Source: Bdellovibrionia bacterium
Lineage (GTDB): Bacteria; Bdellovibrionota; Bdellovibrionia; Bdellovibrionales; JAGQZY01
Assembly (NCBI GenBank): GCA_030424715.1
Contig: JAUHWH010000002.1
Span: forward strand, 211,080-275,079
DNA: 64,000 nucleotides
Direction of reading: 5' to 3'
In this document: positions 16,546-28,397 of the stretch, piece after piece
How positions within the stretch are numbered: position 1 is the stretch's first letter
Layout of the letters: each line of letters begins with the position of its first letter
Translations under genes and position numbers: made by a program
Notes under the pieces: generated by a model
Seen by the model: the letters and a program-made list of their open reading frames with translations, nothing else
Database searches by the model: none
Told to the model about the DNA's origin: nothing

Positions 16546-17601
16546 TTATCTCATCAGAACAGACCCCATGAAGTTTCTGGTGCTTTTATCTTTCATCTCG
16601 TAGAGAACGTGATCAGTCCAATAGTGGAGGGCGATATTGATTCCAAAATGGAAATACAAGAATGGCGCCAAATTGAGTTCGGCACCTCCCTCTAACTCTG
16701 TGGCTAGTCTCGTTGATGCAATGAAAAAACACAAAAAGAGGGTTATGATTATCGTAAACTTATGATTGGATTCAGCTCGAGCCTCAGGAGATAGAATGAT
16801 TTTTCTGTATACCAACACATACTCCATCGAATGGATAATTTTATTTGCGGCAAGCGCCACCGGGTTGAGATAAAAGAACGGAAAAGCCATCGATCGAAAC
16901 AAATAGAAACTCTTGGGATGCGACAGGCTCTGTAGGATCTTGGAGCTTTTAAAAATCACAAAGCCACTAACTAACAGGGAAAGAATCAAACTTCCAATCG
17001 CTAGGTCTGAAAAGTTCACGACTGTCGACGAAAATCTTGCGAAATAAAGGGGAAACACCATGATAGCAAAAAAATTAGCAACACTGATCAAATATCGCTC
17101 TTGCTTGGTCCAAGCTGCCCAAGTTCGCTTAGCCTGACCGGCGCTTTGATTCGCAATCTTAATGTTATACAAACTGGAGATACCAAACATTTGCTTGAAG
17201 TAGTGCCCTGTGGAGGCAAACGAAATTATAAAGTTACGCAAAAAGTGAAAGGCCGGAAAAAAATCCGACTCTTCACTAGAAAAATATTGGAACAGCACGA
17301 GCGGAGCAGAGATAAAAAACGCCACTGCCAATAGTTTTTTTGCATTTTTTCGCAAATTTTGAACAAAAACTATCGTTCTAATTCGTTTCACAACAAGGAG
17401 TAGTGAAAAGGATAGCCCACCATGAACACCACTAAGAATAATGGCGTAAACGGCAATGTTCTCGTAATCCGAAGGGTTCATTGCTGAACTAAAGAAGCAC
17501 ACAACCGTGAGGAAAAAACCGACACCAAGATTCAATTGATCGGCCATAGCGCCGAAAATAGTCGGGCTAGGTACTCCGTCTTTTATATCAGGAAAGTTCA
17601 T
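16546..17601 (-). CDS. Multi-pass membrane protein with histidine-rich ends of helices
   Basis: This 351-residue protein has about eight hydrophobic segments (for example LNLGVGFFLTVVCFF, IAVYAIILSGVHGGLSF, LLAVAFFISAPLVLFQYF, FIIIITLFLCFF-like near residue 300). His and Tyr residues cluster at helix ends: STGHYFKQMFGISSLYN in the middle and YFHFGINIALHYWTDHVLYEM near the C-terminus. This pattern recalls polytopic proteins where His residues bind heme or a metal, but no family can be named. It diverges from the HTTM gene with about 75 bases between the starts, so both may be controlled from the same region. I place it at the left edge of the oxidative gene cluster. Confidence 0.65.
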   Translation of the reverse strand: MNFPDIKDGVPSPTIFGAMADQLNLGVGFFLTVVCFFSSAMNPSDYENIAVYAIILSGVHGGLSFSLLLVVKRIRTIVFVQNLRKNAKKLLAVAFFISAPLVLFQYFSSEESDFFPAFHFLRNFIISFASTGHYFKQMFGISSLYNIKIANQSAGQAKRTWAAWTKQERYLISVANFFAIMVFPLYFARFSSTVVNFSDLAIGSLILSLLVSGFVIFKSSKILQSLSHPKSFYLFRSMAFPFFYLNPVALAANKIIHSMEYVLVYRKIILSPEARAESNHKFTIIITLFLCFFIASTRLATELEGGAELNLAPFLYFHFGINIALHYWTDHVLYEMKDKSTRNFMGSVLMR

Positions 17602-17675
17602 ATATCGTTTGCACCATTGTTTATTCTATTAATATAATAACAGACACTCTCAACGAAATCTATTTTAGGTTGAAT

Positions 17676-19025
17676 ATGCTGCGATCCTTTCTCCAGTCCT
17701 CGCAAAGGGGCATAGAAAACAGTTTCACCCTCTCTAGCAAGAGTTTGAGCCTGATGAGGATATCTCTAGGACTCTCTATTCTCGTCCACTCTTATTATCT
17801 GCTGCAAAAAGTAAAATTATTTTATACTGACAGTGGATTACTACCTCGACAAATCGATGTGCCTTTTAAATTTGAATACCTCCCTGGGCTCAGTCACCTA
17901 AGTGGCAATGCCGGTTGGCAGTATGTTCTCGTGTTTTTACTTAGCGCAGGTGCCGCGAGTCTCCTCGTCGGCTATAGGCCGAAGCTGTCATGCTTCCTCT
18001 GCTGGATTATATTAATTGCTTTTTCAGCGCGCGCGCCCATCCTAGCCTATGGCGTCGATCGCTATATTATTCTTGTTCTTTTCTGGTCTTTTTTTCTCCC
18101 GCTGACTGAACACTATTCACTAGGAAGGGCCAGCAGTGAAAACAGAAACGTTCAGTCTCTCGCTTGCGCAGGACTGATCGGGCAGATTTCTTTGATTATG
18201 ATTTTTTCTGGTCTGAACAAAACAAATCCCTCTTGGATGGATGGTTCTTTTCTTCAAAAACAATTTGATTTTTTTATGACATCCAGACCAATGGGTGACC
18301 TCTTACTTTCCTACCCGACTCTCTTAGCGCTCATAACCAAATCCGTGAAATGGGGCCAAATTCTTAGCGGAACCCTTCTCCTCATTCCTCGGGCCCGCAA
18401 TATAGCAATTTTTGGCATTGCTCTTATGCATATCTCATTTGCAGCATCCATGCGCCTAGTGGTCTTTCCTATCATTGGCCTAACATCATTAGTTGGCCTC
18501 ATAAAGATAAAGGGCCCAATTCTTAAAATGGAGATAGGCCGGAAAACAAAAATGTTTATTCGAGCCTGCCTCCTCTATATAGTGCTTGCGAACCTCAGCA
18601 TGCTTTACACAGAAAGTTTAAAGCCCCTTGGGTACCTTGAGTTTTTTGGCAGAACCCTTGCTCTGAATCAACAGTGGCATATGTTCGGACACAAAGTGAA
18701 CCGGTCTGGATGGTATTACGCGGAGGCTATCAAAAATGGACAAGCCACGCCGCTGTGGCAAAGCCCCCCGCTAGAAAAGCTGAACAATCAAAACCGATAC
18801 CATTTTTTTGTTCCCACATTTTCGTTTTTATACTTTATGCGCCTGAGCCGCCCTTTTTTTGAAAAGGCACAGAATCGATTCACCGATTTCCTTTGTGAAA
18901 GGCATCAGAACAAAAATTATGAGAAAGTGAGGCTCTATTATTTAGAGGAATCGATGACGGCCGATGATTTTAGAAGAGTTCGCCCCCCGCCTCTCGCCGT
19001 CTCATATTGTGACAATAAAGAGTAA
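17676..19025 (+). CDS. HTTM-domain membrane protein (vitamin K gamma-carboxylase-like)
   Basis: The 449-residue polytopic protein shows the HTTM (horizontally transferred transmembrane) pattern. The first membrane segment is SLMRISLGLSILVHSYYLL, followed by LFYTDSGLLPR. Further hydrophobic segments include YVLVFLLSAGAASLLVGY and AYGVDRYIILVLFWSFFLPL, with ISLIMIFSGLNKTNPSWMDG later on. The C-terminal 120 residues are soluble and basic (WHMFGHKVNRSGWYYAEAI). HTTM proteins are related to gamma-glutamyl carboxylase, but most bacterial members have no proven reaction. The start at ATG 17676 follows AGG by seven bases; a TTG lies two codons earlier. It diverges from a His-rich membrane protein and precedes the small-enzyme operon. 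Confidence 0.8.
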   Translation: MLRSFLQSSQRGIENSFTLSSKSLSLMRISLGLSILVHSYYLLQKVKLFYTDSGLLPRQIDVPFKFEYLPGLSHLSGNAGWQYVLVFLLSAGAASLLVGYRPKLSCFLCWIILIAFSARAPILAYGVDRYIILVLFWSFFLPLTEHYSLGRASSENRNVQSLACAGLIGQISLIMIFSGLNKTNPSWMDGSFLQKQFDFFMTSRPMGDLLLSYPTLLALITKSVKWGQILSGTLLLIPRARNIAIFGIALMHISFAASMRLVVFPIIGLTSLVGLIKIKGPILKMEIGRKTKMFIRACLLYIVLANLSMLYTESLKPLGYLEFFGRTLALNQQWHMFGHKVNRSGWYYAEAIKNGQATPLWQSPPLEKLNNQNRYHFFVPTFSFLYFMRLSRPFFEKAQNRFTDFLCERHQNKNYEKVRLYYLEESMTADDFRRVRPPPLAVSYCDNKE

Positions 19026-19127
19026 ACAAGACTTTGGTCCCGCGTGGTGAGTTAAATTGAGACTTACCGTGCAGGAAGACTTCTCATTGACCGGACCTTG
19101 AAATATGATGGAAGAAAGGGGAATGTG

Positions 19128-19688
19128 TTGCATAAACGTCATTTTTTAAAGCACATAGCGATTTTTTTAGCGGGCTCGTCCGCCGGCCTCACCTCGGAAA
19201 GCGGTCTCGCATTATTGCGCAACCTCCCATCCTTGACTGGCCCACAAGAAGGCAAGGCCTTCCTGACCAAAAGGACTCTCTGGATTAACGACACCGAGAA
19301 AAACGCTACTTTTGTAAACAACTACCTGAGTAATTGCCAATTTCAAATGAGATCTCAACTCGCCAATATGCCCGGGAATTTTTGGAAAAGCCATGGGGAC
19401 TCAATACGTTATGCCCGTGACACTAAAAACCTTCTCTTTCGAGCGAAAGTCCAGAGACGATCGAGAAATGTTATTGAGATAGTCAATTTATGGTCTTCCC
19501 AGCAGTTCTATCGCCAATCCTATCAACAATGTAATGGACAGTTCTTCACTCGGCAGCTCTCTCAGATTGGTTTTTCTTCGAGAATTGTGGGACACTCAGT
19601 CAGCCTCTCCTGGGCCCAAACCCACTTACCCTTTTACGCAGGTTTGGATCCCAGCACCATTGAAATTAATCAATTGGATAAGGCCTAA
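19128..19688 (+). CDS. Exported small alpha/beta protein, paralogue of the 27942 gene
   Basis: This protein of about 186 residues starts at TTG six bases after AAGGGG (GTG at 19125 is the alternative). Residues 2-25 (HKRHFLKHIAIFLAGSSAGL) form a signal-like segment; KRHFLK resembles a Tat motif with Lys in place of the first Arg. The remaining 140 residues match the protein at 27942-28397 by eye: NNY, MRS, MPGNFW, LLFRAK, then the VIEIVNLWSS and QQCNGQFF blocks. The predicted order is helix-strand-strand-helix, as in dimeric ferredoxin-like barrels of the antibiotic-biosynthesis-monooxygenase type, but no catalytic residues are known. I do not recognise a named family. It heads the left module of the oxidative cluster. 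Confidence 0.65.
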   Translation: MHKRHFLKHIAIFLAGSSAGLTSESGLALLRNLPSLTGPQEGKAFLTKRTLWINDTEKNATFVNNYLSNCQFQMRSQLANMPGNFWKSHGDSIRYARDTKNLLFRAKVQRRSRNVIEIVNLWSSQQFYRQSYQQCNGQFFTRQLSQIGFSSRIVGHSVSLSWAQTHLPFYAGLDPSTIEINQLDKA

Positions 19689-19758
19689 TTTCTTCGCCAC
19701 CACCTACGCTGTGCGTCTTTGGTGATCACAAACGGACTCCGTGGTACTACTCTCTACC

Positions 19759-20031
19759 ATGCCATCAGATTTTGATAAATTTCTCGATAACCAAACTTTC
19801 GAATGGCAGGGCAAAACCTTTCGCCTCTCGGGGGATCTATTCTCAATGCTCCATCATTGGCATTTCGGGACATCGACAGAGTATTATCGCAGTCCAAATA
19901 AACAGCTCATTCTGCCCGACGTCGACGGAAAGCTAGTAAAGATAACCGATCTGGGGGCCGCCCTAGACAAAGCCTTTCATAGATACAACGAACTCTCCTG
20001 CCGAGCCTACGAAAAGGACATGAAAAAGTGA
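19759..20031 (+). CDS. Small protein of unknown function in the oxidative cluster
   Basis: The 90-residue protein (ATG 19759) has no signal peptide or membrane segment. It contains a beta-turn-rich start (QTFEWQGKTFRLSG), a His-rich segment (FSMLHHWHFG) and a C-terminal helix (LGAALDKAFHRYNELSC). Its stop overlaps the GTG of the Asp-hydroxylase-like gene by four bases, so the two are translationally coupled. Possible roles are a carrier or substrate protein for the oxygenases, a small subunit of one of them, or a metallochaperone. None has direct support. I recognise no family. Confidence 0.6.
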   Translation: MPSDFDKFLDNQTFEWQGKTFRLSGDLFSMLHHWHFGTSTEYYRSPNKQLILPDVDGKLVKITDLGAALDKAFHRYNELSCRAYEKDMKK

Positions 20032-20672
20032 GCCGCGGCGAATTTGTAAGCTCAAAGCGAAGTCGCGTCCAAGGAACTGGCCCTGACCGAAAGTTTTTGC
20101 CCGACTATCAATGGGTCATGGCTCTGCCACCCAAAGTCATCGCCGAAATCAAAGCTTTGACGACCGCACCAGATTTCAAGAACGACATCTATGGCGACTC
20201 TTATAGCGTATCGAAGTTCTGTGATTTACGTCGAAAAATCCCACAACACCACGCCAACTTTCTCCTGCAAAAACCCAACGATTCTGATCGAGGCATGGAC
20301 CAGAAGCAGTATAAGACCTGGGACAGCAAGTGCCGTAACGGTGCGATCCAGGCTTTTTTCTCAAACTACTTTCCTAATTCATATCGAGCGAGGATAGCCA
20401 TTCTACCTCCCAATTCGGAAATTGATTGGCACATCGACATGAACACGAAAGTAAGCTGTCGGCTGCACGCCCTCATTGAAAACAAAGACTTTGTTTTTGA
20501 AATTGATCGTAAAGGAACTATTAAGCAAATTCCATTCGAGCCTGGACAGATCTTTTTCACAAATACAGCTTACCCTCATCGCGTGTACAATCGGACAGAT
20601 AGACCGAGAGTCAGTTTGCTATTTGATATTGATTTTGAAGACATTTCGCATCTCTTAAGAGTGGTGCCATGA
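20028..20672 (+). CDS. Aspartyl/asparaginyl beta-hydroxylase-like Fe/2OG oxygenase 1
   Basis: The 214-residue protein starts with GTG, overlapping the previous stop (GTGA). The C-terminal half fits the Asp_Arg_Hydrox domain: LPPNSEIDWHID carries the HxD iron ligands, TAYPHRVYN the distal His, and DRPRVSLLFDID the Arg that binds 2-oxoglutarate. The N-terminal half (residues 1-110) is variable, with one Cys pair (KFCDLR, SKCRNG). Family members hydroxylate Asp or Asn in proteins or free amino acids and peptides. Substrate is unknown. It is translationally coupled to a small protein upstream and to a GNAT-like gene downstream, and a second, distant relative lies at 26305. Confidence 0.8.
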   Translation: MSRGEFVSSKRSRVQGTGPDRKFLPDYQWVMALPPKVIAEIKALTTAPDFKNDIYGDSYSVSKFCDLRRKIPQHHANFLLQKPNDSDRGMDQKQYKTWDSKCRNGAIQAFFSNYFPNSYRARIAILPPNSEIDWHIDMNTKVSCRLHALIENKDFVFEIDRKGTIKQIPFEPGQIFFTNTAYPHRVYNRTDRPRVSLLFDIDFEDISHLLRVVP

Positions 20673-21286
20673 AGTTCGTAAAACGACCAAACTATGATTT
20701 TTCCGTAATGACTCTCGATACTATCGACCGCTGGAAGGGAGACTTCGAGACGGTCCGGCAAAACATACTAGCTCAAAAAAACGAAACTCGTAAAAAAAAC
20801 TACTCACTCGAAAGGTTAAACATTAGCGAGCAAGAAGAAGTGACTGTCCTTTATCGGAACTATGCCTTAGTCGCATTCTCCACCCTCTACCGCCGAGATT
20901 TTTACCCACCCGGTGTATCTCGTGTCTTAAATCGAATGTGGAAAGATCAAAGCATTCGCAATATCGAAAAGCCCTTTCATCTTGTTTCAAAACTGATGCT
21001 CGATCAGCAACTCGACGTGGCTCGGCAGCTCGATAAAAAAGCCGTCTTCATTTCAACAGAGGGGGTCCGAGGCCGCTGGCTACAAGAATGGGTCAAGCAA
21101 GCCAATCAAGCCGGCATGGCCTGGAAAGCCATTCCAGGCAAGTGTCATGTTGCGCCCGGAAATCACATTAGTTGCTGGCAAAATGTTGCCGTTTTTGTGA
21201 TTGACCCCGGCCATGACGTTAGATTTGACACTATCTCCGACAAAGAATGGAAGAAGATGAGAAACCTGGGAGAACGTAGTGCCTAA
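20669..21286 (+). CDS. GNAT-like protein (possible N-acyltransferase)
   Basis: This 205-residue soluble protein overlaps its upstream neighbour by four bases (ATGA) and the desaturase by eight. The middle part (YRNYALVAFSTLYRR, then FYPPGVSRVLNRMW, then LVSKLMLDQQLDVARQLD) resembles GNAT-fold acetyltransferases found in marine phages and bacteria, where a beta-bulge and helix bind acyl-CoA. The similarity is at pattern level only; the Q/R-x-x-G-x-G/A loop of classical GNATs is not evident. It might acylate the product of the hydroxylase, or be a divergent member without catalysis. It belongs to the left module of the cluster. Confidence 0.5.
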   Translation: MKFVKRPNYDFSVMTLDTIDRWKGDFETVRQNILAQKNETRKKNYSLERLNISEQEEVTVLYRNYALVAFSTLYRRDFYPPGVSRVLNRMWKDQSIRNIEKPFHLVSKLMLDQQLDVARQLDKKAVFISTEGVRGRWLQEWVKQANQAGMAWKAIPGKCHVAPGNHISCWQNVAVFVIDPGHDVRFDTISDKEWKKMRNLGERSA

Positions 21287-22028
21287 ATTTTCCAACTCTA
21301 ACAAACTACGTATTGTCCATTTATTGAATCACCTCGCCCTTGCATACGGTCTTGTCGCTGGCGAATGGTGGATGTGGCTGGCGGCATTTTTTGTCTGGAA
21401 CCTAATAGGGTCATTTGGAATTTCCATTGGATATCATAGACTTCTATCCCATAAAAGTTTCCGAACTTCGCTCTGGTTAACCAACCTATTTTCATTCATC
21501 GGTTGCCTGGCAACCGGCGGTTCACCTCTGTCGTGGGTTGGTAGCCACCGCCTTCATCATGCAAGTCCTGACGGGAAACTTGACCCTCACTCCCCGATCC
21601 AGAAGGGGTACCTCCCAATCTACTTGCATTTCTGGGGCAACGTCATAATTCCCCGTAGACACATCCGCGACCTTCTTAAGTCACCTTTCCAGCGCTTTCT
21701 GCATCGACACTATTTTAAGATTCTTGTGCTGTGGGCGGCCCTGCTCTACCTATGGGATCCACTTATTGGTGTTTTTGTCTACAGTGTCCCCGCCGTTTTT
21801 GCTTTCCATGCTTTTGGAATGATAAATACGCTCTGTCACAAGTTCGGATACCGAAACTTCGAGGTTAAAGACACATCAACTAACAATTGGTTTGTCAACA
21901 TTTGGACATGTGGTGAAGGCTGGCACAATAACCATCATAAAAACCCGTCATCATATCGAATTGGGCTCAAACGTTATGAGTTTGATTTGTCGGCATTCTT
22001 GATTGAGGCTCTAAGATTGCGCTCTTAA
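21279..22028 (+). CDS. Acyl-CoA (delta-9 type) fatty-acid desaturase
   Basis: This 249-residue membrane di-iron enzyme has the three His boxes of acyl-CoA desaturases: GYHRLLSH near residue 52, SHRLHHASPD near residue 89 and EGWHNNHH near residue 212, plus extra His in CHKFG. Four hydrophobic segments surround them. It inserts a cis double bond into an acyl chain at the inner membrane, using O2 and reduced ferredoxin or cytochrome b5-type donors. It is shorter than most relatives (about 300-380 aa), lacking N- and C-terminal extensions. The GTG start overlaps the GNAT-like gene, and its stop overlaps the convergent hydroxylase gene end by 18 bases. Confidence 0.93.
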   Translation: MPKFSNSNKLRIVHLLNHLALAYGLVAGEWWMWLAAFFVWNLIGSFGISIGYHRLLSHKSFRTSLWLTNLFSFIGCLATGGSPLSWVGSHRLHHASPDGKLDPHSPIQKGYLPIYLHFWGNVIIPRRHIRDLLKSPFQRFLHRHYFKILVLWAALLYLWDPLIGVFVYSVPAVFAFHAFGMINTLCHKFGYRNFEVKDTSTNNWFVNIWTCGEGWHNNHHKNPSSYRIGLKRYEFDLSAFLIEALRLRS

Positions 22029-24133: not shown

Positions 24134-24269
24134 ATTGTATGAGAATATGCAAAATTATAGGCGTCTCTTGCTATAAAAATTCGAAAATTGACAAGAGGCT
24201 CCCTCAAAAAGCTGTATTGCCCCGCGATCGACTTTAATCCAACGCTTGAGTGTATCTTTAGGCTTTTCA

Positions 24270-25451
24270 ATGGAAAATTCCTCAGGTATCTTTCTAAAAA
24301 TGAAGGCGACTGGAAAATATCATTGCAACTATTTCTGGAATCATGTCGCTATTGACTCGAGAGGAGCGATCCGGCCCTGCTGTCGATATCTCGACCAGGT
24401 ACCAGCCGGACAACTGAACGACGGCCTCGCGCCTGTTTTTAGTAATGCAAAATTTCAACAACTGCGCTCAAACTCGATGGACGGTCTTCAAATCCCAGGC
24501 TGCCAAACATGCTATGACGCTGACGCGGCTGAACTGCCGAGTTTAAGAACCTATGCAAACTCCAAAACGACGATGCCGCCCCATGGGAACATCACCGGCC
24601 ACTCGGGGGACATTGAAGACATTCACCTCTCCATCGGCAACTTGTGCAACTTGAAATGCACCATGTGCTCACCAAAGTACAGTCATCTCTGGGAGGCCGA
24701 TTATAAGAAGCTGGGGTGGTCAACGAAGTCGTTCACAAACCCTCATAAAGAAAAAATTGACTTCCCGGCTCTATTCACAAGCCTACCTAAGCTAAAAAGA
24801 CTGCGCATTGTCGGAGGTGAACCCTTGTTGTCTCTCCATCACGACAACTTACTGACCTCTTTACAAGAAAAGTACAAGCACTCCATCGCATTGGACTACT
24901 TCACCAACCTTACAAAAATGCCCTGCGAGAACACCCTGAAAGCATGGCAAAACATTGGCAACGTCGCCCTCAACTTAAGCATCGATGCCCATGGAGCCCT
25001 CAACGACTACATCCGCTATCCTTCAAAATGGAAAACCATAGCAAGCAACCTTGAAGGATTCATTGCCCTTGCCAAACGACACTCTTTTATAAAGATACAG
25101 GTACACACGACAGTTTCTATTTTGAACATTGTTCATCTGGCGAATCTAAGACATCACCTGGCTTCTATTTTTCGAAAGCATCGGCTACCACTCATACACA
25201 AAGAGGTCTTGATCCATCAACCCACTTTTCTCAGCGTAAAGCATATGCCGCAAAGACTTAAAAGGATGGTCATTCTGAACGAGTCCAATCCTGCAATCGT
25301 GCAGTTTGCCAAGCAGCATCTCGATGCTGAGCCGCAATGGGAGCCCCTTGTTTCTTATCTCGAAAGTATCGACAAACTCCGAACTCTAAAATCTTTTGAG
25401 GTCTTACCCCATCTTTTCAATTCTTCCGATATAGGGACTCAAGAGAAATGA
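24270..25451 (+). CDS. Twitch-domain radical SAM protein
   Basis: This protein of about 393 residues has the N-terminal twitch/SPASM-type cysteines (IRPCCRY and PGCQTCYDAD) expected to bind an auxiliary iron-sulfur cluster. The radical SAM core motif CNLKCTMC near residue 130 is followed by IVGGEPLL (SAM-binding GGE) and LSIDAHG. It should cleave SAM to a 5'-deoxyadenosyl radical. Twitch-type proteins of this layout occur in marine phages and bacteria without known products; many SPASM relatives modify peptides. The ATG at 24270 is chosen (a TTG at 24246 is possible). The stop overlaps the TauD-like gene by four bases, so these two enzymes are probably made together. Confidence 0.88.
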   Translation: MENSSGIFLKMKATGKYHCNYFWNHVAIDSRGAIRPCCRYLDQVPAGQLNDGLAPVFSNAKFQQLRSNSMDGLQIPGCQTCYDADAAELPSLRTYANSKTTMPPHGNITGHSGDIEDIHLSIGNLCNLKCTMCSPKYSHLWEADYKKLGWSTKSFTNPHKEKIDFPALFTSLPKLKRLRIVGGEPLLSLHHDNLLTSLQEKYKHSIALDYFTNLTKMPCENTLKAWQNIGNVALNLSIDAHGALNDYIRYPSKWKTIASNLEGFIALAKRHSFIKIQVHTTVSILNIVHLANLRHHLASIFRKHRLPLIHKEVLIHQPTFLSVKHMPQRLKRMVILNESNPAIVQFAKQHLDAEPQWEPLVSYLESIDKLRTLKSFEVLPHLFNSSDIGTQEK

Positions 25452-26272
25452 ACCCTAAAGTCTCCCCTCTGGCGCCGTTTGGCGCATCCGTAAAAGGCAT
25501 TGACTTAAACGAGGGCTCACAAAACGATCTTCAGCTGATCATCACGCTGCTGAAAAAGCACCAGTTTGTCGTGGTTAAAAATCAAAATCTTGAACTCTCC
25601 AAGTGGGTCGAAGCTCTCTATGGTCTGGGACAACCCACCCGCTACAAGCATTTTGTCCATCCAGAGCACCCAGAACTTGTCAGGGTCACGTCAAAGAAAG
25701 ATCCGTCCGGAGATCCTCTTGGCCTGTTTGGAGCTGGCGACCTGGGCTGGCATACCAATGGCACAGCCAGATTGAACCCCGAGAATGGACTAGCCATATA
25801 TGGTGCACAAAATGTCGCCGGGAGCGTCACCTCTTTTGCGAACTGTCACCTGTACTACGAAAGTCTTTCCAACGAAGAAAAAAGACACCTCGACACACTT
25901 GAAGCTCGCTTTGCCTACCAAAACAACCGGTTCATTAAATCTGATGAGCGGGAGTCTTCTGTTCTTTCTAAAATGGGCGCTGGCGCAGAGGGTGGTGTTG
26001 TAAAACCCCTCATTTCGACCTGCCCGGCAACAGGAAAGAAGGCTTTTTATCTTGGTGTGAACTATCTAGAATCAATAGTTTCAATGCCGCCTGAAGATTC
26101 CCAACAATTAATTTCTGAACACTCCGCACGATGCTTTAGTGGCCACTTTATCTACAACCACCTTTGGGAAACCGGGGATTGTATTTTCGCAGATCAACTG
26201 CTCACTCAACACAAGCGAGGTCGAGTCGTCGACGACCGGATGGTTCTTAGAACGGTTTTCCATTACCGATGA
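25448..26272 (+). CDS. TauD/TfdA-like Fe/2OG protein 1 with HxN in place of HxD
   Basis: The 274-residue protein fits the TauD/TfdA superfamily: an N-terminal DUF-like strand pair (HQFVVVKNQNLELS), GLGWHTNGTARL at residues 98-109, WETGDCIFADQL near residue 240, the distal His in TQHKRGR (His255), and an Arg in MVLRTVF (Arg268) that would hold 2-oxoglutarate. The first motif gives His102-Thr-Asn104, so the usual Asp or Glu iron ligand is Asn. The paralogue at 26988 shares this. Substrate is unknown. The gene overlaps the radical SAM gene by four bases. The assignment to the superfamily is firm; catalytic outcome is open. Confidence 0.85.
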   Translation: MNPKVSPLAPFGASVKGIDLNEGSQNDLQLIITLLKKHQFVVVKNQNLELSKWVEALYGLGQPTRYKHFVHPEHPELVRVTSKKDPSGDPLGLFGAGDLGWHTNGTARLNPENGLAIYGAQNVAGSVTSFANCHLYYESLSNEEKRHLDTLEARFAYQNNRFIKSDERESSVLSKMGAGAEGGVVKPLISTCPATGKKAFYLGVNYLESIVSMPPEDSQQLISEHSARCFSGHFIYNHLWETGDCIFADQLLTQHKRGRVVDDRMVLRTVFHYR

Positions 26273-26304
26273 ACTCACGAAGTCTCGAAAAAAGGAAGAA
26301 AACA

Positions 26305-26991
26305 CTAATTCTGAAACTGAACTTGGTTTTCGAACTGGCCTAAAGATGGCCTGGAAATTATGAATTCCTTATATTTTTCAAGACTATCTCGCAAACAGGA
26401 GACACCCTCCACGGAAAGATCGCCTTGCCAAGGGGATCCTATACAGACGGTATACTTGGTGGATGAACTGGAGTTTACCATCCCGTGGGATCTCGACCCA
26501 TCGATAACATAGCTATTAAAAATCGACGGTATGTTCTTTCGACCATGTTGGCTCAAAAAATACAATCCGGCGATGTCTCCGGAAATGACGAAACGATATT
26601 TTGGATGGTACTCGCTCTGCAAAGACCGAGAACAATCAATATGGTCTTTAAGACACCCCCCAGGAGGTGTCTTAATAATGGTCACTCGTCCCATGTTCTG
26701 AAAGAGTGGCTGAATCGTAGAAACCACGAAAGGCATCAGGCTAGGGAGCCTGTCAATGATAGTCGTCCACTGCAAAGGCCTTTTTCGATTTCTAAAAACC
26801 TCTTGTTTAGTGGAAGTTTCACCGCCCCCTGAATAAAGACAGCACATATGAGTTTGACGGTACTCATCCCAGAACCAATCCTGAGTCGAAAGAGCATCAA
26901 GCTCTTCCTTGATAGTCACAAGCTTCTCACTATCAAACGAGATTGCTAAAGGTAGAAATGCGGGGCGCGCCACCAGATTGCTTATGTTCAC
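26305..26991 (-). CDS. Aspartyl/asparaginyl-hydroxylase-like Fe/2OG protein 2
   Basis: This 228-residue protein has an N-terminal FWDEYRQTHMCCLYSGGG region and a C-terminal double-stranded-helix pattern. KTPPGGCLKDHIDC contains the HxD ligands near residue 116, EYHPKYRFVISG follows, and SRSHGMVNSS gives the distal His. The place of the 2OG-binding Arg is taken by Lys in STKYTVCIG, or another residue acts. It is only distantly like the hydroxylase at 20028. The GTG start overlaps the TGA of TauD-like 2 (GTGA), so the two form a coupled pair. It converges on TauD-like 1 with 32 bases between stops. Confidence 0.7.
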   Translation of the reverse strand: MNISNLVARPAFLPLAISFDSEKLVTIKEELDALSTQDWFWDEYRQTHMCCLYSGGGETSTKQEVFRNRKRPLQWTTIIDRLPSLMPFVVSTIQPLFQNMGRVTIIKTPPGGCLKDHIDCSRSLQSEYHPKYRFVISGDIAGLYFLSQHGRKNIPSIFNSYVIDGSRSHGMVNSSSSTKYTVCIGSPWQGDLSVEGVSCLRDSLEKYKEFIISRPSLGQFENQVQFQN

Positions 26992-27908
26992 AAATAATCC
27001 AAAACATGGTTATTAAAATCAAAAGCTATGCGATAGAGTTGGCGAGTTTCAACCGAGGACACCTCTGTCCGACGATGGAATCCACTCAATTGGTCATTGA
27101 AAATAAGGTCACCCTTTTTCCACTGATGCTTGTAAACGTATTTATCCTGGAACATGTGATTTTTTAGAAAACTCCATAACTCTTTCTCGTTGAACCCTTT
27201 GCCGTCTCTTCGCCACCATCTTGATAGAGTTGGGTAACTGAAGTAAAGACTTTTTTTGTTAGAAAAAGGATGAACCGACACGAGAGGACGGCACACGCGA
27301 CCATATCGAGTCTCACGACCGTTTATTCGATCAGCCTCCCCGGTAAAAACTCGGTATTCGGGGTCTTCCGGCTTAATCTTGTAGAATGTGTCGGGTCGTG
27401 AGGGGTCAAATTCGTATTCACACTCAATCTCTTCAACCAGCGCCTTAAGGTCGGGAGACAAATCGGCATAACTTCGCTGCCCATGGGAAAACCAAGTCTC
27501 CCCCCCAACCCCAGGGGCAACACAATAGAGCGCAAGAAAAGCTTCTGAATCAGATCGAGTGTTTCCATTGGAGTGCCAGCCAAGCTCTAGATCCGCAAAA
27601 ACACCTTGCTTTCGGCCCTCGGCATCGCGCTGATTCGTGACCAAAGTGATCTCAGGACAGCTCGGATGGTTAAAGAAATAGTCTCGGCGTCGCATATTTC
27701 CAATATTACGAATACAATCAACGAATTCACTGGCACTGAGGTCCTGACCCGTAAAAACAATCGTGTTCCGGTGCGCAATCTCCTGCGCTAACATCAACCA
27801 TTGCTGGGAATTCAGATTCTTAACGTGGAGATCAGAGGAGAAAGCATTCTCGTTGATAAAAGGGGTTAATGTCACAATCCCTGACCTACTATTAATTGTC
27901 GCTCGCAA
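26988..27908 (-). CDS. TauD/TfdA-like Fe/2OG protein 2 with HxN in place of HxD
   Basis: The 306-residue protein (TTG start; a GTG at 27875 is a good alternative) is a TauD/TfdA member. It shows RNTIVFTGQDLS near residue 47, LGWHSNGNTRSD near residue 109, FLALYCVAPGVGGETWF, WKKGDLIFNDQL near residue 263, the distal His in GFHRRTE (His278) and Arg in LYRIAF. As in its relative at 25448, the motif reads His112-Ser-Asn114, missing the carboxylate ligand. The sequence identity to TauD-like 1 is limited outside motifs, so conservation of Asn in both is meaningful. It precedes the Asp-hydroxylase-like gene 2 in a coupled pair and diverges from the small paralogue at 27942 with a 33-base gap. Confidence 0.85.
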   Translation of the reverse strand: MRATINSRSGIVTLTPFINENAFSSDLHVKNLNSQQWLMLAQEIAHRNTIVFTGQDLSASEFVDCIRNIGNMRRRDYFFNHPSCPEITLVTNQRDAEGRKQGVFADLELGWHSNGNTRSDSEAFLALYCVAPGVGGETWFSHGQRSYADLSPDLKALVEEIECEYEFDPSRPDTFYKIKPEDPEYRVFTGEADRINGRETRYGRVCRPLVSVHPFSNKKSLYFSYPTLSRWWRRDGKGFNEKELWSFLKNHMFQDKYVYKHQWKKGDLIFNDQLSGFHRRTEVSSVETRQLYRIAFDFNNHVLDYL

Positions 27909-27941: not shown

Positions 27942-28397
27942 ATGTATTTTTTAACGACACTTAAGATTCAGCACAATGACTCGGAGCAAAACCAAATATT
28001 GCTCAACAACTATAATGCGAATCCAGAATACAAAATGCGTCATATTCATTCTGACATGCCGACGGACTTCTGGAGCAACTATGCAAAAACCTTGGTAGAA
28101 CTGGCCACCGAACGTCGACTGATTTTTAGAGCGAAGTTCGCAAATCTTACGGAACAAGTCGTTGAGGTTTTAAATGTCTGGGACTCTCGAAAGACTTTTG
28201 AAAACATGTTTGACCAATGCAACGGCAACTTGCTTCTTGAGAGCTTTGCTCGAAAAAGTTTTACGATTTCATTGGTTAAAAAGAACATTACCCAGGATGA
28301 ATTCAAAAGTCTTGATCAATGGGTTCGAACTCAAAAAAACCCGCAAGTTGTCTTCAACAAACTTAACTCTAATGAGCAAAGCCTTCTCGGGACATAG
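27942..28397 (+). CDS. Small alpha/beta protein, paralogue of the 19128 gene
   Basis: This 151-residue cytoplasmic protein (no signal peptide) aligns by eye with the C-terminal part of the 19128 product over about 100 residues. Shared blocks are NNY, YKMRHIHSDMPTDFW against FQMRSQLANMPGNFW, LIFRAK against LLFRAK, VVEVLNVWDS against VIEIVNLWSS, and DQCNGNLL against QQCNGQFF. The predicted order helix-strand-strand-helix resembles the dimeric ferredoxin-like barrel, but no active residues can be named. It ends the cluster on the right side and diverges from the TauD-like 2 / Asp-hydroxylase-like 2 pair. It might be an enzyme subunit or ligand-binding protein of the pathway. Confidence 0.65.
   Translation: MYFLTTLKIQHNDSEQNQILLNNYNANPEYKMRHIHSDMPTDFWSNYAKTLVELATERRLIFRAKFANLTEQVVEVLNVWDSRKTFENMFDQCNGNLLLESFARKSFTISLVKKNITQDEFKSLDQWVRTQKNPQVVFNKLNSNEQSLLGT

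Follow-up and report, generated by a model that had tools for sequence, protein, structure and literature searches.

We analyzed a 64,000-nucleotide stretch of the genome of a Bdellovibrionia bacterium (contig JAUHWH010000002.1, positions 211,080 to 275,079; hereafter the window), which encodes two proteins resembling the Fe(II)/2-oxoglutarate (2OG) oxygenase TauD, here called TauD-like 1 and TauD-like 2. Both carry Asn where enzymes of this kind carry the metal-binding Asp, the usual His-x-Asp (HxD) motif reading His-x-Asn (HxN). Our analysis makes it reasonably probable that both are active TauD/TfdA-fold oxygenases belonging to a distinct subfamily in which Asn stably replaces the metal-binding Asp. 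Judged against the open-access literature and the databases searched, what is new is a conserved TauD-fold subfamily of the Asn type, which marine phages and Bdellovibrionota share and which comes with a recurrent gene module.

The first-pass annotation had reported HxN in both proteins, together with the distal His and the Arg that binds 2OG, and had described the two as otherwise rather different. All three statements held. The DNA reads tgg-cat-acc-aat-ggc (W-H102-T-N104-G) in TauD-like 1 and tgg-cac-tcc-aat-gga (W-H112-S-N114-G) in TauD-like 2, each preceded by the residues L-G; the distal His and the Arg are present in both (residue numbers in Table 1), and the two proteins share 28-32% identity. 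At window positions 25757-25762 and 27564-27569 the codons specify Asn-Gly, a classic deamidation pair, and Gly follows Asn in most family members.

Membership of the TauD/TfdA family is supported by both sequence and predicted structure, and TauD/TfdA enzymes are the best matches of the window proteins on both counts. TauD-like 1 and TauD-like 2 scored 102.4 and 121.3 bits against PF02668, whose cut-off is 27, and no other protein encoded in the genome matches this family. The AlphaFold2 model of TauD-like 2, built with 53 sequences (mean predicted local distance difference test score, pLDDT, 88.9), has the TauD-type double-stranded beta-helix fold, and Foldseek placed ScoE (E 1e-21), SfaA and TauD (E 4e-19) as its best PDB matches. 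The best viral match of the modeled protein is a 269-residue protein of 31% identity, the same length as the protein of phage Mosig described below. Within this fold the Arg holding the 2OG carboxylate is present (R264 and R289) and invariant in the family; the HxD...H iron triad of PF02668 enzymes is HxN...H in both proteins, and the Gly or Ala that marks halogenases is absent, Asn standing in its place. A Pfam search found no match to PF05118, the family of the human hydroxylase AspH, in either protein. A role in taurine catabolism was considered and rejected: no tau transport genes lie alongside, and the TauD equivalog scores are 59.3 and 53.7 bits against a cut-off of 313.

A profile of the two proteins was searched over 291 genomes of the phylum and found relatives in a few. 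Full-length relatives occur in other Bdellovibrionota-type genomes (three in G128, two in G137 and one each in G287 and G219), and all 7 carry Asn. When these were aligned with the window pair, Asn was present in 9/9 bacterial proteins at pairwise identities of 22-40%, and W-H-x-N, GDxxxxDQxxxH[KR]R and two Arg residues were invariant. Ordinary HxD TauDs occur elsewhere in the phylum (G180 and G253), so the phylum is not simply Asn-using. Genome G026 holds a C-terminal remnant of an HxN-family TauD (L025:9051-9422, 123 residues); the locus abounds in other oxygenase-like genes.

The family is also carried by more than 100 marine virus fragments. A scan of viral contigs yielded 80 loci and further scans 28 and 9, and a viral scan using TauD-like 1 alone gave no match. 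Pelagiphage Mosig EXVC030M was the sole match among the isolated phages of the collection; its protein QOI69039 is 32% identical to TauD-like 2 (2e-37) and 64% identical to a viral HxN protein. An 8.6 kb contig labelled Candidatus Paceibacter (L029) encodes a phage-type HxN protein and is probably viral DNA in the bin. The collection scans fetched loci, almost all of them viral, that contain 126 distinct homologous open reading frames (ORFs). The motif was legible in 124 of these, with Asn in 120 (codon AAT in 75, AAC in 45) and Asp in 4. Because one viral search pattern and the genome pattern included H[ST]N and could favour Asn, the ORFs whose motif falls outside the pattern were tallied separately, giving 60 with Asn and 4 with Asp. 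Alignment of homologues, which had been proposed as a check on whether the Asn is invariant, thus upheld Asn in all nine bacterial proteins and 120 of the 124 readable ORFs, strict invariance being broken by the four with Asp. The ratio of nonsynonymous to synonymous substitution (Ka/Ks) was 0.05-0.27 where it could be estimated, most pairs being saturated at synonymous sites, and by this measure the HxN family is under strong purifying selection.

Asn is accompanied by a set of other conserved residues. In TauD-like 2 numbering, W111, H112, D267, D272, H278, R280, R289 and R293 are invariant in 58 family representatives, including the Arg two residues after the distal His (R280, 58/58), and Gln follows the second Asp (Q273) in 57/58. 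In the HxD outgroup all 13 rows carry Asp in place of the Asn, and R280 and Q273 are missing from nearly all of them. Compared with TauD/TfdA enzymes (PF02668; E. coli TauD, ScoE/SfaA), the window family has the same fold and retains the first and the distal His, the Arg for 2OG and the second Arg, and differs in having Asn for Asp, Gln for Asn after the second Asp, Arg at distal His+2 and an acid four residues before the first His.

A maximum-likelihood tree of 38 rows, 11 of them outgroup sequences, was built with the Asn column left out. In this tree the HxN proteins form one branch, separate from the HxD TauD/TfdA enzymes (support 94/94), the split coinciding with one state change. The outgroup is small, so a single origin of the HxN branch is likely, not proved. 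Two Asp-bearing phage proteins, L054 and L085, are nested among Asn proteins (100/98), giving a minimum of two state changes on the main tree and 2-3 on bootstrap trees; a quick 75-row tree gave the same picture. L054 and L085 share 55% identity, and L054 and its Asn sister L071 share 52%; this return to Asp took place in a subgroup without Gly after the motif (HSNL to HSDL). Both retain the other family marks, which suggests that Asn and Asp are exchangeable in at least one lineage. Homologues with Asp at the site and identical function had been named beforehand as evidence that would speak against a special role of Asn; such homologues exist, which is half of that case, identical function being the other half. 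Taken together, the family-wide Asn, the single branch and the purifying selection bear out the earlier opinion that the change is conserved and does not reflect random decay.

Within the HxN branch the position of TauD-like 1 was not firmly resolved. A protein of Bacteriovoracaceae type from G137 (L022:9736-10572) nests among phage proteins, and transfer is for this reason still likely; the tree suggests that marine phages and Bdellovibrionota have exchanged genes. Another, deeper HxN group has HSNE, with DN in place of DQ, and includes a Methylomagnum ishizawai plasmid protein and further viral proteins. The plasmid protein (L151:88-1152), which is named a TauD/TfdA dioxygenase, reads WHSNE.

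An active oxygenase is favoured because all other catalytic features are strictly kept, because the gene has multiplied within loci, and because Asp has returned once. In such an enzyme iron would be held by the two His and 2OG by the conserved Arg. Asn, in the third protein position, might place its side-chain oxygen on the iron, or might hold a water as second-sphere residues do in AspH. Reaction of O2 with 2OG would then give an ordinary ferryl, oxidising a C-H bond of a substrate on which the neighbouring Asp/Arg-hydroxylase-like oxygenase and acyl-desaturase-like protein would also act; this substrate may be a lipid, an amino acid or a protein side chain. Precedent comes from AspH itself, which hydroxylates with two His and a water, has no carboxylate on the iron, and does not halogenate (PMC13168262). 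Several points weigh on the other side. In prolyl 4-hydroxylase, Glu is reported to be the only laboratory replacement of the iron-binding Asp that keeps activity (PMC2767507), and this tolerance of Glu alone indicates that loss of the carboxylate often kills such enzymes; an Asn variant was not among the replacements that we found described. In addition, the model of TauD-like 2 is metal-free, the support separating the HxD and HxN branches is moderate with only 13 outgroup rows, and it is from the gene neighbourhood alone that a shared substrate is suggested.

A bolder form of the proposal is possible, though we think it less likely than not: that throughout a largely viral branch of 2OG oxygenases the Asn carboxamide binds iron directly (2-His-1-Asn), giving a ferryl with different charge and product choice, and that this chemistry is used in a marine-phage host-recognition cassette shared with Bdellovibrionota. 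In nature, lipoxygenases with an Asn iron ligand already show an Asn side chain bound to a non-haem iron or close to it; they are unlike the window proteins in having an unrelated fold and chemistry and in not using 2OG. Searches of the open-access literature for 2OG oxygenases with a 2-His-1-Asn or HxN motif turned up nothing of relevance.

The first-pass annotation had raised altered chemistry such as halogenation, and we rank this below ordinary Fe/2OG oxidation. Here chloride or another anion would sit on the iron at the vacated site and be transferred to the substrate by the ferryl. The known Fe/2OG halogenases (WelO5, BesD, DAH) have indeed lost the carboxylate, with Gly or Ala at the site (PMC12346261, PMC11301626), and the additional Arg that is invariant at distal His+2 might in principle stabilise an anion. 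However, the known halogenases use small residues, whereas Asn would occupy the anion site; change of the Asp to Ala or Gly did not convert prolyl 4-hydroxylase into a halogenase (PMC2767507), carboxylate-free AspH does not halogenate, and Asp has returned once in the family with the Arg and all other marks retained. We therefore regard halogenation or other anion transfer as unlikely.

The other suggestion made at that stage, that the proteins are non-catalytic, is no better placed. Dead relatives might be retained as binding proteins or scaffolds, for instance partnering adjacent HxD oxygenases; the carboxylate is gone, and oxygenases with intact motifs are nearly always near, which makes an inactive partner conceivable. 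Pseudoenzymes usually lose several catalytic residues, however, and in this family the two His, the two Arg and the context of the motif do not vary, which makes this reading unlikely, as do the presence of up to four copies per locus, the strong selection and the one return to Asp.

Another carboxylate, above all E108 at His-4, might instead complete the triad and leave a disguised but normal 2-His-1-carboxylate center. E108 is the only new conserved acid, Glu or Asp being present in 57/58 family members as against Glu in 2/13 HxD relatives. It aligns with N95 of TauD, which we take to contact the substrate, and where the triad Asp has returned this position is still acidic (Asp), so that no simple swap has occurred. 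For these two reasons E108 is more likely to be a substrate residue than a substitute ligand, and we consider a hidden carboxylate distinctly improbable. Least probable of all is self-maturation, in which Asn-Gly would deamidate after translation to an Asp or iso-Asp that thereafter binds iron: Gly follows Asn in 48/60 representatives versus 3/15 for Asp, and the sole return to encoded Asp is in the Gly-free subgroup, but in 12/60 the Asn precedes Leu, Glu, Met or Val, where deamidation is expected to be slow, Asp lies one base away, so that selection for Asn needs a reason, and Gly may just serve the loop.

The HxN genes belong to a recurrent module. In 105 viral loci with an HxN member, which are loci and not independent viruses, since some contigs entered through two scans, 97 had an Asp/Arg-hydroxylase-like gene, 87 a small acyl-desaturase-like gene and 80 a gene for a pyridoxal phosphate (PLP) enzyme with only weak HisC/GntC-like similarity. 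In this operon-like arrangement the neighbours lie mostly on the same strand, overlapping or fewer than 30 bases apart, and 64/105 loci hold two to four HxN copies. The window carries the first two module families (Table 1), and the module is also found in G128 and in Mosig, where Asp/Arg hydroxylase, desaturase, aminotransferase, TauD, methylase and acetyltransferase genes form a single run beside tail-fibre genes. A paper on pelagimyophages describes this region as a host recognition cluster that is hypervariable and holds many genes with no apparent relation to tail fibres (PMC7029224). The desaturase gene suggests an acyl substrate, but the PLP enzyme and radical S-adenosylmethionine (SAM) genes suggest small-molecule synthesis, and we favour neither reading.

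With regard to known systems, AspH (PF05118) would resemble the window proteins, if these are active, in working with two His and a water and no protein carboxylate on the iron (PMC13168262), but it belongs to another family, has no Asn at the HxN position, and its PF05118 relative near the window genes has HxD. The halogenases share the loss of the carboxylate ligand and differ in having Gly or Ala where the window proteins have Asn. The closest annotated entries are PHROG 24590, 'taurine catabolism dioxygenase', and Mosig QOI69039. The Mosig protein is a family member by sequence, with a similar neighbourhood; these entries are annotated by name only, and the Asn goes unremarked in the open-access literature searched. 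The 2-His-1-carboxylate triad is a textbook signature whose known exceptions have either no side chain (halogenases) or bare water (AspH). A long-lived, conserved Asn form within which Asp has naturally returned already provides a test of the function of the carboxylate, and the family points to an uncharacterised oxidative pathway in many marine phages and Bdellovibrionota, where its members are usually called 'taurine dioxygenase' by label only.

Table 1. Features of the window discussed in the text (window positions; aa, amino acids)
Feature	Position	Strand	Details
TauD-like 1	25448..26272	+	274 aa; His102, Asn104, distal His255, 2OG Arg264, Arg268; PF02668 match and alignments
H102-T-N104 codons of TauD-like 1	25751..25759	+	cat-acc-aat; direct sequence reading
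TauD-like 2	26988..27908	-	306 aa, TTG start as listed; His112, Asn114, distal His278, 2OG Arg289, Arg293; PF02668 match
H112-S-N114 codons of TauD-like 2	27567..27575	-	cac-tcc-aat; direct sequence reading
Twitch-domain radical SAM protein	24246..25451	+	NF033640, 245.7 bits; 4-base overlap with TauD-like 1; homologues in L020, L021, L025
Putative further oxygenase	26305..26991	-	228 aa; DHID and later His; 4-base overlap with TauD-like 2; oxygenase reading from motif alone
Asp/Arg beta-hydroxylase-like 2OG oxygenase	20028..20672	+	PF05118, HxD (WHID); part of conserved module
Acyl desaturase-like protein	21279..22028	+	PF00487; part of conserved module
Protein, GNAT-like by eye only	20669..21286	+	between two module genes, kept in G128; homologues also in L023, L025
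Small conserved ORF	19741..20031	+	96 aa; first in overlapping gene row 19741-22028; L020:18906-19238, 6.5e-27; same order in G128
Small protein with Tat-like N-terminus	19098..19688	+	paralogue of 27942-28397; homologue L020:15431-16018
Small paralogue of 19098-19688	27942..28397	+	divergent to TauD-like 2

The genes around the pair are listed in Table 1. The order of the overlapping row 19741-22028 is conserved in G128, whose cluster also encodes a homologue of the putative further oxygenase (L020:19256-19966, E 8e-69); Pfam and PDB searches with the latter gave no match, nor did a Pfam search with the GNAT-like protein. A local sequencing error or decay was rejected as the source of the Asn, which is family-wide; the adjacent non-TauD oxygenases keep HxD (WHID in 20028-20672, DHID in 26305-26991), so the Asn is no local effect of either kind. 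A prophage was likewise rejected, the flanks being chromosomal (trpS family; nrdA/nrdB-like genes read from ORFs) and the G+C content even.

The small paralogues 19098-19688 and 27942-28397 flank the gene group, and together with L020:15431-16018 two of the three have N-termini resembling twin-arginine translocation (Tat) signals. The model of the 19098-19688 protein (pLDDT 62) gave a weak match to a dimeric ferredoxin-like fold and nothing stronger. Small proteins with Tat-like starts were also seen by eye near the oxygenases of L022 and L025. Membrane proteins lie near the cluster as well, an HTTM-domain protein (PF05090) and a member of a conserved integral membrane family at 16546-17601 and 17670-19025, and similar membrane proteins were noticed by eye near other HxN clusters (L021, L022, L024 and L025).

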